NCBI RefSeq assembly: GCF_036194065.1 | Contig: NZ_CP108096.1 | Span: 186,001-250,000, forward strand | Direction of reading: 5' to 3' | DNA length: 64,000 bases | From: Streptomyces sp. NBC_00239 | Lineage (GTDB): Bacteria > Actinomycetota > Actinomycetes > Streptomycetales > Streptomycetaceae | In this document: positions 29,707-37,160 of the stretch, in pieces | Layout: the number at the start of each line of letters is the position of its first letter | Position numbering within the stretch: position 1 is the first letter of the stretch | Position numbers and translations under genes: made by a program | The notes under the pieces: generated by a model | The model's input: the letters and a program-made list of their open reading frames with translations, nothing else | Databases searched by the model: none | Told to the model about the DNA's origin: nothing

Positions 29707-29842
29707 CGGTGCGCCTTTCGCCGTGCGGGTGGGTTCGGCTGCGGGTGGCTCGACGAGGGGCCAAGGGGCGGTTCATGACGGCGGCCCCGGCCACAGATGT
29801 GGTCGGGGCCGCCGGCGTTGGTCCGCGAGGTCCTCATCGTGC

Positions 29843-30001
29843 TCAGCCGGATGCCGTAGAGGGCGCCGTGGTGTCCGGTCCGACCGGTGCAGGCTCCGCG
29901 GCGGCCGGCACGGGCCCCTCGGACTCCGGTGTCTCCTCGCGCGGGTGCACCGTGGGCGGCACGGGGACGGGCCAGGGCAGGTTGGTGAACTTCGCGGTCA
30001 T
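29843..30001 (-). CDS. Pro-rich peptide, 52 aa
   Basis: ATG at 30001 follows AGGAG at seven bases and starts two bases after the MFS exporter stop, so it is made with the exporter. Product MTAKFTNLPWPVPVPPTVHP followed by an acidic, Pro/Ala/Thr-rich tail. It has no signal peptide and no Cys, so a lanthipeptide is excluded, and no modifying enzyme is adjacent. A short peptide directly behind an exporter could be a substrate or a regulatory partner, but this is only from position. Confidence 0.6.
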   Translation of the reverse strand: MTAKFTNLPWPVPVPPTVHPREETPESEGPVPAAAEPAPVGPDTTAPSTASG

Positions 30002-30003
30002 GG

Positions 30004-31239
30004 TCAACTCCTGTCGTCGGGGCGGGGGGTGGCGCGGCTGCGCAGGGAGCGGGCGAGGGGGTAGCAGGCGGTGACGGCGAGGGCGGCGCTGGCGGCGAGG
30101 AGGCCGGCGACCAGGGGGCGGCCGCCGGCCTCCAGGGCGAGCGCGATGCCGAGGGGCGGCAGGGAGGCGAGCGCGGTCGCGCCGCTGATGACGGCCTGGT
30201 AGCGGCCGGTGGCGCCGGGCGGGGCGGCGGTGGAGATGTAGGCGCCGACGGCGACGCTGTAGCAGACCTCGCCCGGGACCAGGACGACGGCGGCGATCGC
30301 GTAGCCCAGGACCGTGTGCTGGAACGCCGCGATGGTGATGCCGAGGCCGAGGATGGCCGAGCCGGCCGCGAGGACGGGCACGAACGGAAACCGGACGGCC
30401 TCGCCGCGGCCGACGAGCAGGCGCATCAGGGGCGGGGTCAGGGCGAGGACGCCCACGGTGTTGGCGACCATCGCCAGGCCGAAACTCGTCGCCGGGAGGG
30501 CGTCGTTGGTCATGAGCAGCGGCAGGACCGAGACGAGCCCCCAGGCGCAGACCATCGAGCAGACGGCGACCACGGTGATCCAGCGCAGGGTGGGGTCCGC
30601 CAGGACCTGTCGGTAGCCGGCCGACGGCGTGTCCGCGGTGGGTGGCCTGGGGGCCAGGGTCCGGCGGGCGACGAGCGCGAAGGCCAGGCACACGAAGGCG
30701 TTGACGACGAACAGGATGCGGTAGCCGTAGGTGTGGGCGAGATATCCGCCCGCGCCACCGCAGATCGCGATGCCCACATTGCTCGCGAAGTACGTCCAGG
30801 TCTGTGCGCGTGTGCGGCCGGCCTCGCTGGGGATCGCCTCGTTGATGGAGGCCGACACGGCCGGCCGGTGGGCCTCCATGGTCAGTCCCAGGCAGACGGC
30901 GACGCCGAGCAGCGCGGGCAGGGAGGTGGCGACGGCGAGCGCGAGGCACGCGAGCGCGGACAGGATCATCAGGGTGACCAGGGCAGTGCGCTGGCCGAGC
31001 CGGTCGGTCAGCGCGCCGGCCGATGCCTGGCCCAGACACCAGCCGACCCCGAATGCGGTGAGCGCGGCTCCGGCTGCGGTGGTCCCATGTCCGGTCCCGT
31101 CGGCCACGTAGTAGCCGAGGAAGTCCCAGCTGAACCCGCCGGCCTTCACGACGAGCGAGCTGGTGATCAAAATCCAGACGACGGAGTGCGCCGTGCGGGC
31201 GGGCGGCACGGCCGTGGTGGCGGAGGTGTGAGTGGCCAT
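30004..31239 (-). CDS. MFS exporter under leader-peptide control
   Basis: ATG at 31239 (MATHTSATTAVPPARTAHSV...), with GGGAGA upstream. The 411-residue protein has twelve predicted membrane segments and the major-facilitator motif between segments 2 and 3 (GALTDRLGQRTAL). Segments 4-5 include GLTMEAHRPAVSASINEAIP, as in drug:H+ antiporters. It most likely exports a small hydrophobic compound across the inner membrane. The 5' region is unusual: a 20-codon SVR-rich leader peptide (31346-31408) and a 14-bp hairpin (31291-31329) come before the start, as in antibiotic-inducible resistance genes. The 52-residue peptide gene follows directly. Confidence 0.85.
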   Translation of the reverse strand: MATHTSATTAVPPARTAHSVVWILITSSLVVKAGGFSWDFLGYYVADGTGHGTTAAGAALTAFGVGWCLGQASAGALTDRLGQRTALVTLMILSALACLALAVATSLPALLGVAVCLGLTMEAHRPAVSASINEAIPSEAGRTRAQTWTYFASNVGIAICGGAGGYLAHTYGYRILFVVNAFVCLAFALVARRTLAPRPPTADTPSAGYRQVLADPTLRWITVVAVCSMVCAWGLVSVLPLLMTNDALPATSFGLAMVANTVGVLALTPPLMRLLVGRGEAVRFPFVPVLAAGSAILGLGITIAAFQHTVLGYAIAAVVLVPGEVCYSVAVGAYISTAAPPGATGRYQAVISGATALASLPPLGIALALEAGGRPLVAGLLAASAALAVTACYPLARSLRSRATPRPDDRS

Positions 31240-31290: not shown

Positions 31291-31329
31291 CCCGAAGGCG
31301 GCCGAACCAGAGGTGCGGCCGCCTTCGGG
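31291..31329 (-). promoter_or_regulatory. Attenuator-like hairpin before MFS exporter
   Basis: Perfect 14-bp inverted repeat (CCCGAAGGCGGCCG, 11-base loop) lying 16 bases after the stop of the leader peptide and 52 bases before the exporter ATG. It could act as an intrinsic stop released when ribosomes stall on the leader. Confidence 0.65.
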
Positions 31330-31345
31330 GTGCTGCTCGTGGGCC

Positions 31346-31408
31346 TTACGGGCGCACGAAGCGGACGGAACGAACGGAACGGACGGAACTCTTACGGCAA
31401 GGGCGCAT
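31346..31408 (-). CDS. Leader peptide with SVR repeats, 20 aa
   Basis: ATG at 31408 is preceded by GAGGAG with an ideal 6-base gap. The product is MRPCRKS followed by SVRSVRSVRFVRP and TAA. The middle is encoded by three 9-bp direct repeats (TTCCGTYCG, 31362-31388). The stop is 16 bases upstream of a strong hairpin, and the next gene is an MFS exporter. All elements of a translation-dependent attenuator are present: short uORF, good start, repetitive basic peptide that could stall ribosomes, hairpin, resistance-type gene. The compound sensed is unknown. Confidence 0.7.
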   Translation of the reverse strand: MRPCRKSSVRSVRSVRFVRP

Positions 31409-31495
31409 GAGCTTCTCCTCTTCGGTGGTGCCGACTCCCCGAGGTCCGGGGATGAGGTGAACGTATGGGCAGGCCGGCGGTGCGTTGGCCGGTCC

Positions 31496-31543
31496 GGTGC
31501 ACCCCGGACATGGTTGAAAAGCGGATCATGTCCGGGGTGCACC
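31496..31543 (-). terminator. Perfect 17-bp inverted repeat
   Basis: GGTGCACCCCGGACATG and its complement with a 14-base loop, 21 bp after the stop of the 402-residue gene. It most likely ends that transcript; because it precedes the leader-peptide unit it could also be an operator. Confidence 0.65.
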
Positions 31544-31564
31544 GCTGCCCCGGGGAGCTCAGCA

Positions 31565-32817: not shown

Positions 32818-33657
32818 TCAGGCGATGCGGCGGGCTGGGGCGGCCCCGGGCCAGGAGCCGGCGGCGCGGCCGGCCGCCCGGCGCAACAGGACGGCGAACT
32901 CCTGCGCCCTGAGCGGATCGTGGAAGAGCGGCTCGGCTCCGGTGAGGCTGAGGACGGCGATCAGGTGCTGCCCGCGCAGGACGGGCGTGGCCAGGGTGCA
33001 GACGCCGGGACATCGGCGCAGCGCGATGCGGGTGGAGCGGATGGTGTCCCGCACGGCGGGCGCCAGCGTGAGCGGGCGGTCATCCGCGCTGACGGCGAGT
33101 TCGGCGGGAGCATAGGCGAGCGCGGCGCGGCCGGCGGCGCTCGTCCGTGCGTCGCCCTCGTGCTGGGCTGCCGCGGCGCGCAGCTGCGGGAGCGGGCAGG
33201 CCAGGTCGATGAGGGTGAGGTGGAAGCCGAGGCCGGGGCGGAAGTGCGGCTCGTGCCAGGACACGGCGAGCCCGGTCTCCTGCTGGAGGTCCTCGATGAT
33301 GCGTCGGACGGCCGGGGTGGTCCGGCCCGTTCCGGTACTCACCGGGGCGAGCGCGCGGGCGTCGCGGGTGAGCCGGTAGGCACCGCGGCGGGTGCCCGGC
33401 TCGACGAGGTTCTCCAGGCCGGCGGCCTTGAGGAGCTTGGAGGCGTGCGAGGGCTGCAGACCTGCGGCGCGGGCGATGTCGGCGAGCTGGTGTTCCTCCT
33501 CGGCGCCCAGGCGCAGCAGGGCGCGCAGGAGCCGGAAGCCGCGGCCGGCGGACTGTGGCGGCTGGCGCCCCTCGCTCACGGCGGCGAGGACCGGCGGGAC
33601 GGCGGGCGGGGACCAGTACGCGGACGGGGAGGGTCTGGGCGGGACGTCGAGGGACAT
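32818..33657 (-). CDS. IclR-like transcriptional regulator
   Basis: ATG at 33657 (MSLDVPPRPSPSAYWSPPAV...). Residues about 38-95 are a winged helix-turn-helix (FRLLRALLRLGAEEEHQLAD, LQPSHASKLLKAAGLENL). Residues 115-279 resemble an IclR effector domain: TPAVRRIIEDLQQETGLAVS, CPGVCTLATPVLRG and VLSLTGAEPLF. Members sense small molecules in the C-terminal domain and repress or activate neighbouring genes. The N-terminal wing is divergent, so it could be a related family. Possible targets are the HNH lipoprotein and TrpA genes upstream, or the exporter downstream. Confidence 0.7.
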   Translation of the reverse strand: MSLDVPPRPSPSAYWSPPAVPPVLAAVSEGRQPPQSAGRGFRLLRALLRLGAEEEHQLADIARAAGLQPSHASKLLKAAGLENLVEPGTRRGAYRLTRDARALAPVSTGTGRTTPAVRRIIEDLQQETGLAVSWHEPHFRPGLGFHLTLIDLACPLPQLRAAAAQHEGDARTSAAGRAALAYAPAELAVSADDRPLTLAPAVRDTIRSTRIALRRCPGVCTLATPVLRGQHLIAVLSLTGAEPLFHDPLRAQEFAVLLRRAAGRAAGSWPGAAPARRIA

Positions 33658-33763
33658 GCAACCTCCAGGTCGGTGCGGCGCGGTCAGGCTCCAGACGTCG
33701 TGGGGGGCCAGGGAGCCGGGCCCGGGTGGCGCGGCTCCACGATCGGCGACTTCAGCGGGGCGG

Positions 33764-34816: not shown

Positions 34817-35647
34817 TCACGCAGAGAGCGGGTGGGGACGGGCAGGCGTGTGCAGGGCGTGGGCGAAGGCCCGGACCTGTTCCACGGCGCCGTCGAGACC
34901 CGCGGGGCCCTCGAGCAGGGGCCGGACCAGCGGGGAGCCGATCACGACACCGTCGACGTACGGGGCGACGATCGCGGCGCGTTGGGGGGTGGAGATGCCG
35001 ATGCCGCCGACCACGGGCAGGGAGGTGTAGGACCGCAGCCGGGTGGTGAAGGCGTCGATCGCGGGCAGATCCAGGTCTCCCTGGTAGCCGGTGGGGGCGG
35101 AGGCTGCCGGGGCGTAGATCCAGCCGGAGGCGGCCGCGGTGATGGCGGCCAGCTGGTCGTCGCTGGCGCCGCGCGGTGCGAACTGCGGTGTGTGCAGTCC
35201 TGCTTGGCGGGCGGCGTCGATCCACTCGCCGGCCTCGGCGACGGGAAGGTCGGGGATCATCGCGCCGGCGGCCCCGGCCTGGGCGAGGTCCTGGGCGAAG
35301 CGGGTGGGGCCGAAGTCGAGGACGGGGGCCCAGTAGCTCATGGCGACCACGGGGACGGCGGTGCTGGAGGCGGCGAGGCGGATGGTGGAGAAGACGTGGG
35401 CCATGCGTGCGCCCTGGCCCAGGGCCTGGGCGTAGGCGGCGGCGATGTCCGGGCCGTCGAGGCTGGGGGTGTGGTGGGGGACGCCGACTTCGAGGAAGCC
35501 GGCGCCGTGGCGGGTGAAGGCGCGCAGGGTCTCGATCCCGGCCGTCCAGTTGGGGAAGCCGGCGGGCAGGAACGCGCCGAGGGCCGGTCGCTGCCGGTGA
35601 GCGAGCAGTGCGGTGAGCCCGTTGGCGGCAGGGGTCAGCGTGGTCAT
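34817..35647 (-). CDS. trpA: Orphan tryptophan synthase alpha subunit-like
   Basis: ATG at 35647 with AAAGG upstream; 276 residues, normal TrpA length. The barrel is complete: LEVGVPHHTPSLDGPDIA carries Glu53 and Asp64, which match catalytic Glu49 and Asp60 of Salmonella TrpA, and GWIYAPAASAPTGYQG and VVGGIGISTP form the later phosphate site. The usual SDP of the loop after the catalytic Glu is replaced by HTP, in the part that contacts TrpB. No trpB or other trp gene is nearby. It probably cleaves indole-3-glycerol phosphate; with altered TrpB contact it may work alone and release indole, as some plant homologues do. No Trp leader peptide is visible. Confidence 0.85.
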   Translation of the reverse strand: MTTLTPAANGLTALLAHRQRPALGAFLPAGFPNWTAGIETLRAFTRHGAGFLEVGVPHHTPSLDGPDIAAAYAQALGQGARMAHVFSTIRLAASSTAVPVVAMSYWAPVLDFGPTRFAQDLAQAGAAGAMIPDLPVAEAGEWIDAARQAGLHTPQFAPRGASDDQLAAITAAASGWIYAPAASAPTGYQGDLDLPAIDAFTTRLRSYTSLPVVGGIGISTPQRAAIVAPYVDGVVIGSPLVRPLLEGPAGLDGAVEQVRAFAHALHTPARPHPLSA

Positions 35648-36216: not shown

Positions 36217-37059
36217 TCAGGCCTGGTCGGCGGTGCGGCGCTCGGTGCGGCGCTTGCCGTAGCCGATGGCGCCCACGGTCGCCAGGCCCGCGGCGAGCAG
36301 GCCGCCGGCGGTGAGGGCCAGCGCCGTGTTCCCGTCGGCGCCGGTGTGCGCGAGGCTCCCGGCCGGCGTGACGGTGTCGCTGGCGCTGATCTGCTCGGTG
36401 GCGCCGCCCTTGGGCGAGTCGTGCGAGCTGCCCTTGTCGGAGCCGCCCTTGCCCGAGTCGCCCTTGTCGGAGCCGCCGCTACCCGTGGTCGGATCCGGGG
36501 ACGGCTTGGTGGTCGGGTCGGTGCCCGGGTCGGTCGTCGGCGGAGTGGTCGGGTCCGTGGTCGGCGGGTCCGTCGGGTCGGTCGTCGGCGGATCGGTCGG
36601 GTCGGTCGTCGGCGGATCGGTCGGGTCGGTCGTCGGAGGATCCGTGGGGTCCGTCGTCGGCGGGGTCGTGGGATCCGTCGTCGGCGGGTCCGTCGGGTCG
36701 GTCGTCGGCGGGGTCGTGGGGTCCGTGGTCGGAGGAGTGGTCGGGTCGGTCGTCGGCGGAGTGGTCGGGTCGGTCCCCGGCTCCGTCGGATCGGTGGTCG
36801 GCGGGCCGGTGGGGTCCGTCGTCGGCGGGGTCGTCGGGTCGGTGCCCGGCTCCCCGGTCGGCCCCGGGCTCGGGGAGCCGGCCTTCGCCGACACCTCGAC
36901 CTTCAGCGCCAGCGACGCCTCGTCCGCCGCCGAGGCGGACGGCTTCGGCGAGGGGGAACTGGCGGCGAGGGCTGCCGGGGTGGCCACGGCCCCCGCGGCG
37001 GCGACGAGCGCGGCAGTCGCCACGACGCGGCGCAGCAGGCGCGGTCGGGTCTTACGCAT
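36217..37059 (-). CDS. LAxTG-anchored Pro/Thr repeat surface protein
   Basis: ATG at 37059 (MRKTRPRLLRRVVATAALVA...). A signal peptide ends near residue 33 (TPAALAA). Residues about 60-195 are about 16 copies of a PTTDPT[DT]P unit, a rod-like, probably glycosylated stalk. The C-terminus has LAHTG, a hydrophobic segment (NTALALTAGGLLAAGLATVG) and a basic tail (KRRTERRTADQA), the layout for sortase class E anchoring in high-GC Gram-positives. The part between signal and repeats is too short for an enzyme, so it may be a spacer or adhesin. A DnaA-box-like motif lies about 100 bp upstream. Confidence 0.85.
   Translation of the reverse strand: MRKTRPRLLRRVVATAALVAAAGAVATPAALAASSPSPKPSASAADEASLALKVEVSAKAGSPSPGPTGEPGTDPTTPPTTDPTGPPTTDPTEPGTDPTTPPTTDPTTPPTTDPTTPPTTDPTDPPTTDPTTPPTTDPTDPPTTDPTDPPTTDPTDPPTTDPTDPPTTDPTTPPTTDPGTDPTTKPSPDPTTGSGGSDKGDSGKGGSDKGSSHDSPKGGATEQISASDTVTPAGSLAHTGADGNTALALTAGGLLAAGLATVGAIGYGKRRTERRTADQA
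36510..36850 (-). repeat. In-frame 24-bp coding repeats
   Basis: The Pro/Thr/Asp stalk is encoded by near-identical 24-bp units (GTCGGCGGATCGGTCGGGTC-like on the plus strand). Copies are similar enough to expand or contract by recombination without breaking the frame. Confidence 0.7.
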
Positions 37060-37160
37060 GGGTGAGATCAGCCTCCACTGGTACACGGCAGGCTCGGCCG
37101 GTCAGCGCACGCTGCGCCGGGGCGAAGTACCTGCTGGTGAACTGATCTTGGATTTGGTGG

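Follow-up and report, generated by a model that had tools for sequence, protein, structure and literature searches.

Upstream of an MFS exporter gene in Streptomyces, comparison of orthologous loci shows that a short upstream open reading frame (uORF) carries the marks of selection on its peptide and co-occurs with a strong hairpin. By analogy with known systems, we read this leader as a cis-acting, translation-responsive attenuator in which the ribosome itself would serve as antiterminator, in a geometry resembling that of pyrBI, and we put the probability of this reading at about 0.5. The window, by which we mean the whole 64-kb stretch of DNA analysed, is part of a 312-kb contig (C2) in a genome of 9.3 Mb whose main contig measures 8.5 Mb. 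Because near relatives of the window are Streptomyces, and seven of the eight plasmid-borne relatives examined are carried on linear plasmids, C2 is probably a plasmid.

The leader lies on the minus strand, as do all the features described here. It opens with a -10-like TACGTT (31460..31465) whose TAnnnT is kept in an alignment of 12 orthologous loci, T16 and A17 being nearly invariant and T21 invariant. We take it to be a candidate promoter -10 element by its likeness to the consensus; a generic sigma-70 scan found no promoter at this position. A small hairpin, CCCCGGACCTCGGGG (31437..31451), sits at the presumed transcript start. The Shine-Dalgarno (SD) sequence GAGGAG (31415..31420) precedes by six bases the ATG of the uORF (31346..31408, with the ATG at 31408 and a TAA ending at 31346), whose 20 sense codons encode MRPCRKSSVRSVRSVRFVRP. 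Within it, the units TCCGTCCGT, TCCGTTCGT and TCCGTCCGC (31361..31387), of 9 nt each, encode SVR SVR SVR. A 16-nt spacer (31330..31345) leads from the uORF stop to a perfect 14-bp hairpin, CCCGAAGGCGGCCG...CGGCCGCCTTCGGG (31291..31329), presumably an intrinsic terminator, and the gene for the 411-aa exporter (30004..31239; PF07690 MFS_1, 117 bits) begins with an ATG at 31239, 52 nt past the hairpin. The original prediction had placed a 20-codon frame with GAGGAG at six bases, its stop 16 bases before a perfect 14-bp hairpin and the exporter ATG 52 bases further on, and all of these positions are confirmed. It had also described three 9-bp direct repeats: the three units are there, at 31361-31387, but they are imperfect, differing from one another by one or two bases, and specific to one clade.

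The arrangement of uORF and hairpin stands above chance when 784 kb of its genome are searched on both strands (the 64-kb window, 400 kb of contig C1, 260 kb of C2 and 60 kb of C4, the C2 portion sharing 24 kb with the window). Among the 398 ATG frames with an SD and a length of 8-30 aa in this DNA, four have at least three Arg-Arg spacings of three, and three precede both a hairpin of at least 11 bp and a frame of 100 codons or more whose start is SD-led; the uORF of the window is the sole frame of the 398 to combine the Arg spacing with the hairpin and long frame. Its repeat pattern is also unique within the window (two overlapping matches versus 0.01 expected). Conservation at orthologous loci is nevertheless the stronger argument that it is no product of chance.

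We collected 22 orthologue records from genome contigs, plasmids and further genomes, with exporters roughly 55-87% identical. They represent 17 distinct loci, five having been dropped as 100% identical by blastn (duplicates, with their counterparts in brackets: L042/L110 (L063), L080 (L038), L084 (L040), L083 (L068) and L111 (L037)). The uORF is kept at homologous exporters, the point on which the original prediction staked itself: an SD-led uORF followed by a hairpin occurs in 13 of the 17 distinct loci, and neither element is present in the other four (L037, L068, L082 and L112). All 13 have an SD-like sequence upstream of the uORF with a score of 5 of 6 or better. These 13 loci are related to one another, with close pairs such as L036/L038 (95%) and L066/L067 (91%), so that counts over them, and the Fisher test given below, do not deal with independent cases. 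The gene tables of six annotated uORF-bearing plasmid records, themselves incomplete, contain no CDS over the uORF.

In a tree of 15 exporter orthologues (L039 and L040 left out), the leader-less L037 is the well-supported sister of L064, which has the leader, and this speaks for a loss. The branching order of L082, L066/L067 and the leader-less L068/L112 pair is an unresolved fork; the tree calls for three changes of leader state in all, two of them forced by well-supported branches. Of the leader, L082 has only a stretch similar to the hairpin's 3' arm, shortly upstream of its exporter, apparently left over from a loss. The exporter gene is interrupted at two loci that carry the leader, L039 (3001-4148) and L040/L084, the interruptions being a frame change and an early stop. 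Compared by eye with its relative L081, the uORF of L039 differs by seven substitutions, all amino-acid-changing, as if it were under relaxed constraint. Among more distant homologues, for which 450 nt upstream were considered in plus-strand loci and in paralogues from the same genome, there is no SD-led short frame at L034, L035, L005, L006, L008, L009 or L015; L018 has short SD-led frames starting with GTG and with TTG, and L020 one starting with TTG, but their products do not begin MRP, and L012 has an open short SD-led frame. By eye, the two paralogues of this genome, L034 (G000:C4:76004-77185) and L035 (G000:C2:83921-85093), which are 37-41% identical, have a different strong hairpin upstream.

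The leader peptides are MRPCRKSSVRSVRSVRFVRP in the window, MRPCRKSSVRSVRSVRFVSPL, MRPCRKSSVRSVRSVRLSRPA, MRPYRKSSVRCVRSVR (two loci), MRPCRKSVRSVRSVRKVA in L081 (another genus according to the grouping of the tool), MRPYHKSVRPIWPVHKVA, MRPMDTLDARPFRPFDLARP, MRPCRNRPYRAQRPA, MTRPYRNRPYNV, MRPYRKTNRPG (two loci) and MRPNRIRPNRRPNRALRPNRAVRPN. They share the start MRP (MTRP in one), range from 11 to 25 codons and have no conserved C-terminus. In the codon-aligned set of five close sequences, nine of the 11 variable codon columns are synonymous only, against 29% expected (P 4e-4); the variable columns number 0, 2 and 9 of 16 at the first, second and third codon positions, and pairwise differences comprise 49 synonymous versus 8 amino-acid-changing ones. 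Since variable codons are mostly synonymous and changes fall mostly at third positions, this comparison shows that the leader peptide, SVR units included, is selected within the SVR clade. The SVR string is nonetheless confined to that single clade (the window, L036/L038 with one SVR turned into CVR, L061, L062 and L081), whereas the other orthologues carry RPNR, RPFRPF or the bare MRPYRKTNRPG. The proposal that the SVR repeats are the stalling sequence is not supported by this distribution: it goes beyond the evidence, and the same is true of a ribosome-targeting drug as inducer.

What the leaders do have in common is the MRP start and a wealth of arginine, placed mostly at every third residue, as read from their predicted products. 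In ten related sequences (L038, L039 and L067 left out), Arg makes up 30.1% of leader residues; base shuffles average 14.1%, with 0 of 2000 reaching the observed value, and the two remaining reading frames lie at 13-14%. Spacings of three account for 29 of the 41 between neighbouring Arg residues, a count reached by none of 2000 residue shuffles. Half of the ten sequences belong to the SVR clade, and these figures are therefore inflated by kinship; among the five non-SVR sequences, counting from the peptides, 12 of 19 spacings equal three. Val, Lys and Tyr also exceed the shuffles in the ten sequences and Pro falls below them. The pattern at L040 is made of other three-codon units, RPN, RAL and RAV, so that in two clades, those of the window and of L040, it is as if spacing and not sequence were selected. 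This could reflect a new class of regulatory nascent peptides, (xxR)n with x free to vary between clades (SVR, PNR, RPF), which, acting from within the exit tunnel, would slow the ribosome close to the stop codon and in this way switch off the adjoining terminator without any antiterminator RNA; we regard the existence of such a class as doubtful.

The same figures could be taken as the signature of a sensor of arginine, or of charged tRNA, with inverted logic: with ample Arg-tRNA the ribosome would keep up, the terminator would fail, and an exporter of arginine or of an arginine-like compound would be made. The excess of Arg in the ten sequences speaks for it, and an attenuator that lacks an antiterminator would work in just this inverted sense, which suits an exporter. 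However, known amino-acid leaders run their regulatory residues together, and here the Arg residues are mostly three apart and not consecutive. Three types of Arg codon are used (CGC 35, CGT 9 and CGG 7), the enrichment extends to Val, Lys and Tyr while Pro lies below shuffles, and the downstream gene encodes an MFS exporter without assigned substrate. On balance we find this sensor quite unlikely.

Searched beyond the orthologues, the SVR stretch gave 14 matches in other genomes (the G284 orthologue not counted). In none of the six inspected by eye (L043, L044, L048, L051, L054 and L060) is there a layout of leader, terminator and exporter, and we reject SVR as a widespread stalling motif; VR-repeat frames occur at two of them, L044 and L051. 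A search with the start pattern in 392 genomes returned seven matches, apparently coding parts of one conserved protein; the pattern is too strict, missing the window itself, and says nothing about spread. An R-x-R motif, which resembles the macrolide +X+ motif, is seen by eye in the leader of L040, L064 and L065 only. Among the top matches in open-licence papers, no publication was recognisable as dealing with this leader.

The second element of the leader, the hairpin, has a stem in 13 of 13 leader-bearing loci and a predicted free energy of -27 to -38 kcal/mol in 11 of them. Taken jointly, the 5' hairpin and the terminator contain four pairs changed on both sides, a figure matched by one of 500 shuffles, and in 12 loci 97.4% of their cells are paired, values that clearly exceed those of slid controls; the 5' hairpin by itself has four pairs, two with changes on both sides, and 89.6% of cells paired in the same number of loci. 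The exact 14-bp stem has no second copy in the genome. Searched in four genomes and six plasmids, a covariance model (R1, built from the leaders without L038 and L081) ranked the leader top in all nine that have one and gave weaker matches elsewhere. None of the three inspected among its five other full-length matches has the uORF; two of them are GAAG...CTTC-type hairpins just past a CDS stop, and the third lies about 100 nt beyond the end of a 169-codon frame. Because GAAG...CTTC hairpins of the same type trail ordinary CDS stops, it is strongly suggested by these sequence features that the 14-bp hairpin is an intrinsic terminator. Its U-tract is weak (one to four T among the eight bases past the hairpin) and a generic scan does not list it. 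The 13 Rfam matches all lie far from the gathering score. A second strong hairpin, of 11 bp, is found at 29779-29814 (minus strand) between the 52-aa frame that follows the exporter and a 199-aa gene, and is perhaps another terminator.

The folding of the 13 leaders revealed no shared, mutually exclusive antiterminator. With the ribosome set at codon 4, at codon 6 or at the stop, the pairing probability of the terminator is 1.0 in 13 of 13 loci; in 10 of 11 loci the leader pairs with the 5' arm of the terminator less strongly than the mean of block shuffles, in none of the 11 is this pairing significant, and pairing with the 3' arm exceeds shuffles only in L081 and L064 of the 11 loci tested, where these models make an antiterminator possible. 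The original reading of the whole holds in part: a selected leader peptide and a hairpin of the terminator type do lie in front of an MFS exporter, and an attenuator is the favoured reading, but SVR as the stalling sequence is not supported in that form. A hairpin around the uORF stop codon, considered as a pause signal, looks conserved by eye but is matched by 289 of 1000 shuffles. A frameshift from the uORF into the exporter was also rejected, the relation between the two frames varying among loci and the exporter frame having a stop inside the leader in seven of 12.

These folds weigh directly on the classical drug-induced attenuator, in which an antibiotic would arrest the ribosome on the SVR or the MRPCR stretch of the uORF and an alternative RNA structure would block the terminator and turn on a drug exporter. 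The architecture and its position before an MFS gene fit this scheme, and so does the pairing with the 3' arm in L081 and L064. There are also precedents: for are5sc, tiaA and lmrC of Streptomyces, a uORF together with a terminator and antiterminator is in use or has been described (PMC12421871), and bmrB-bmrCD of Bacillus subtilis is a case of drug-induced attenuation of a transporter (PMC4191407). Yet 10 of 11 loci have 5'-arm pairing weaker than the average shuffle, the terminator is formed in all 13, the exporter reaches the cut-off of no NCBIfam resistance model and SVR is limited to one clade, which together make drug induction by this route unlikely. Alternatively, the leader could be a constitutive brake, where the terminator sets a low read-through, the uORF serves to maintain translation and stability of the 5' end, and the peptide senses nothing. 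No signal has been identified, the terminator is strong in all folds and SVR-like repeats are present elsewhere in Streptomyces DNA, as would be expected; but the synonymous-biased change and the Arg pattern indicate a selected peptide, and we deem such a brake improbable.

The absence of a shared antiterminator, together with a stop-to-stem gap that lies mostly within the range of a trailing ribosome, is the reason why we favour the ribosome as antiterminator. Despite uORFs of 11 to 25 codons, this gap is 16-19 nt in nine of the 13 loci; it is 6 nt in L064, 47 nt in L065 and 59 nt in L066/L067, that is, 6-19 nt in ten and 47-59 nt in three. In the plasmid loci L065, L066 and L067, an extra hairpin-like stretch lies inside the longer spacer. 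In E. coli, the trailing ribosome represses a terminator placed close past a stop codon, and termination recovers once the distance exceeds some 27-30 nt (PMC4824070); at pyrL, termination is cut from 21.5 to 9.9% by a trailing ribosome (PMC10135430). In the scenario that follows we infer the promoter, that interference by the ribosome causes the read-through, which way the control runs and what the signal is. Transcription from a promoter near 31460 would give a short leader RNA with the uORF and then the intrinsic terminator, so that only polymerases that read through would reach the exporter. Instead of an antiterminator RNA, a closely following ribosome at the uORF stop would hinder closure of the hairpin and let the polymerase pass, and the Arg-patterned nascent peptide would determine how long the ribosome stays in the last part of the uORF. 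Conditions that alter uORF translation, such as the supply of arginyl-tRNA, a ribosome-acting compound or the own substrate of the exporter, would then change exporter levels: a late stall, or one at the stop codon, should raise them, and an early stall should lower them.

Several observations temper this reading. A gap of 16-19 nt is in the partial range of repression by the ribosome, and the effect could therefore be weak; the spacers of L065-L067, at 47-59 nt, exceed the published range, and that of L064 is only 6 nt, which argues against ribosome interference. The constancy of the spacer is not unique either, since the distance from hairpin to exporter is fairly constant too, the stem starting 77-93 nt upstream of the exporter ATG in the window and in the ten loci with a perfect stem. 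We also count against an attenuator the weak U-tract, the interrupted exporters of L039 and L040, and the precedent of the ilvB leader peptide of S. coelicolor, where codon changes were without effect despite the presence of leader and terminator (PMC1262725).

The exporter matches only MFS_1 above the Pfam cut-off. Its 17 NCBIfam matches are weak, none reaching a curated cut-off, and it is in this sense no recognised resistance determinant. Its homologues form at least 68 clusters at E<=1e-30, that of the window included, and its matches to solved structures are two entries of one putative drug transporter, over residues 47-196. Upstream lies a putative winged-HTH regulator gene (32818..33660, start codon uncertain) whose product is weakly IclR-like, with HTH_IclR, MarR_2 or GAF matches all below Pfam cut-offs. 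Within the 3-6 kb examined, a homologue of this regulator accompanies the exporter at 11 of the 13 loci with the leader and at none of the four without it (Fisher P 0.006, for loci that are not independent). Directly 3' of the exporter is a 52-aa frame (MTAKFTNLPWP..., 29843..30001) with a Pro/acid-rich tail and an N-terminus kept in several orthologues; a protein of 45-52 aa trails the exporter in several loci, its N-terminus reading (K/N)F..(L/I)PWP in the clearest cases. Relatives of this frame with MTSNF/MTANF...PWP are seen in L061, L063 and L066. Given that a regulator gene and a small protein of 45-52 aa accompany the exporter, the locus looks, from its gene content, like a small regulated export module.

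Microcin C has a comparable order of parts, mccA-terminator-mccB...mccC, with a short peptide gene, a terminator and an MFS exporter, and the uORF could in principle be a minigene for a secreted peptide of this kind, followed by a leaky terminator and its exporter. Unlike in microcin C, contig C2 has no match to a ThiF enzyme (MccB-type, PF00899), the three matches in the genome being all on C1. The leader peptides, of 11-25 aa, also lack a conserved C-terminus, and we hold a secreted product to be very unlikely.

Further features of the neighbourhood, again on the minus strand, deserve mention. A long inverted repeat, GTGCACCCCGGACATG...CATGTCCGGGGTGCAC (31495-31545), starts 20 nt past the stop of a 402-aa gene. 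By eye it is near-complete where that gene adjoins upstream (L036, L038, L061 and L062), and half of it is kept in L063. As it is near-complete only alongside the 402-aa gene, it is likely to be the terminator of that gene rather than an operator. A lone trpA-like gene (tryptophan synthase alpha, PF00290) lies at 34817-35647; the annotation of L061, L064 and L066 likewise places a trpA close to the exporter. The frame at 36217-37086 contains PTTDPT repeats and a C-terminal LAHTG that resembles, by eye, a sortase signal.

The leader adds a selected peptide and a likely terminator to a family of exporters of Streptomyces plasmids, in a place left empty by the gene tables examined. Together, uORF and terminator may let ribosome activity set the amount of exporter. 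If the mechanism is true, the signal would point to the cargo of the exporter; and if the ribosome alone acts as antiterminator, the leader would be a compact natural system in which to measure how stop-to-terminator distance and the spacing of charges in the nascent chain relate to read-through.

Known systems resemble this leader in different respects. The ARE5 uORFs of Streptomyces (are5sc, tiaA) share with it the genus and the combination of a uORF and a premature terminator upstream of the gene, but have predicted antiterminators that overlap the ribosome-binding site of the uORF, and peptides such as MLV and MVGDDDISG (PMC12421871); here the peptides are longer and Arg-rich, and no shared antiterminator was found. 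In B. subtilis, bmrB also governs a transporter operon, bmrCD, through a leader peptide and attenuation; it does so with three alternative stem-loops, for an ABC transporter and with a demonstrated response to drugs (PMC4191407). The ilvB leaders of actinobacteria likewise pair a leader peptide and a terminator with an incomplete set of attenuator parts, but they precede genes for branched-chain amino acids, and changes in their candidate regulatory codons are described as without effect in S. coelicolor (PMC1262725). The closest geometry is that of E. coli pyrBI, where a leader ORF, pyrL, comes with a terminator and a trailing ribosome lowers termination (PMC10135430). In pyrBI the terminator is inside the leader ORF, and UTP-dependent pausing of the polymerase determines if the ribosome can catch up with it (PMC4824070); in the leader described here, the terminator lies past the uORF stop and it is the leader peptide that forms the patterned element.
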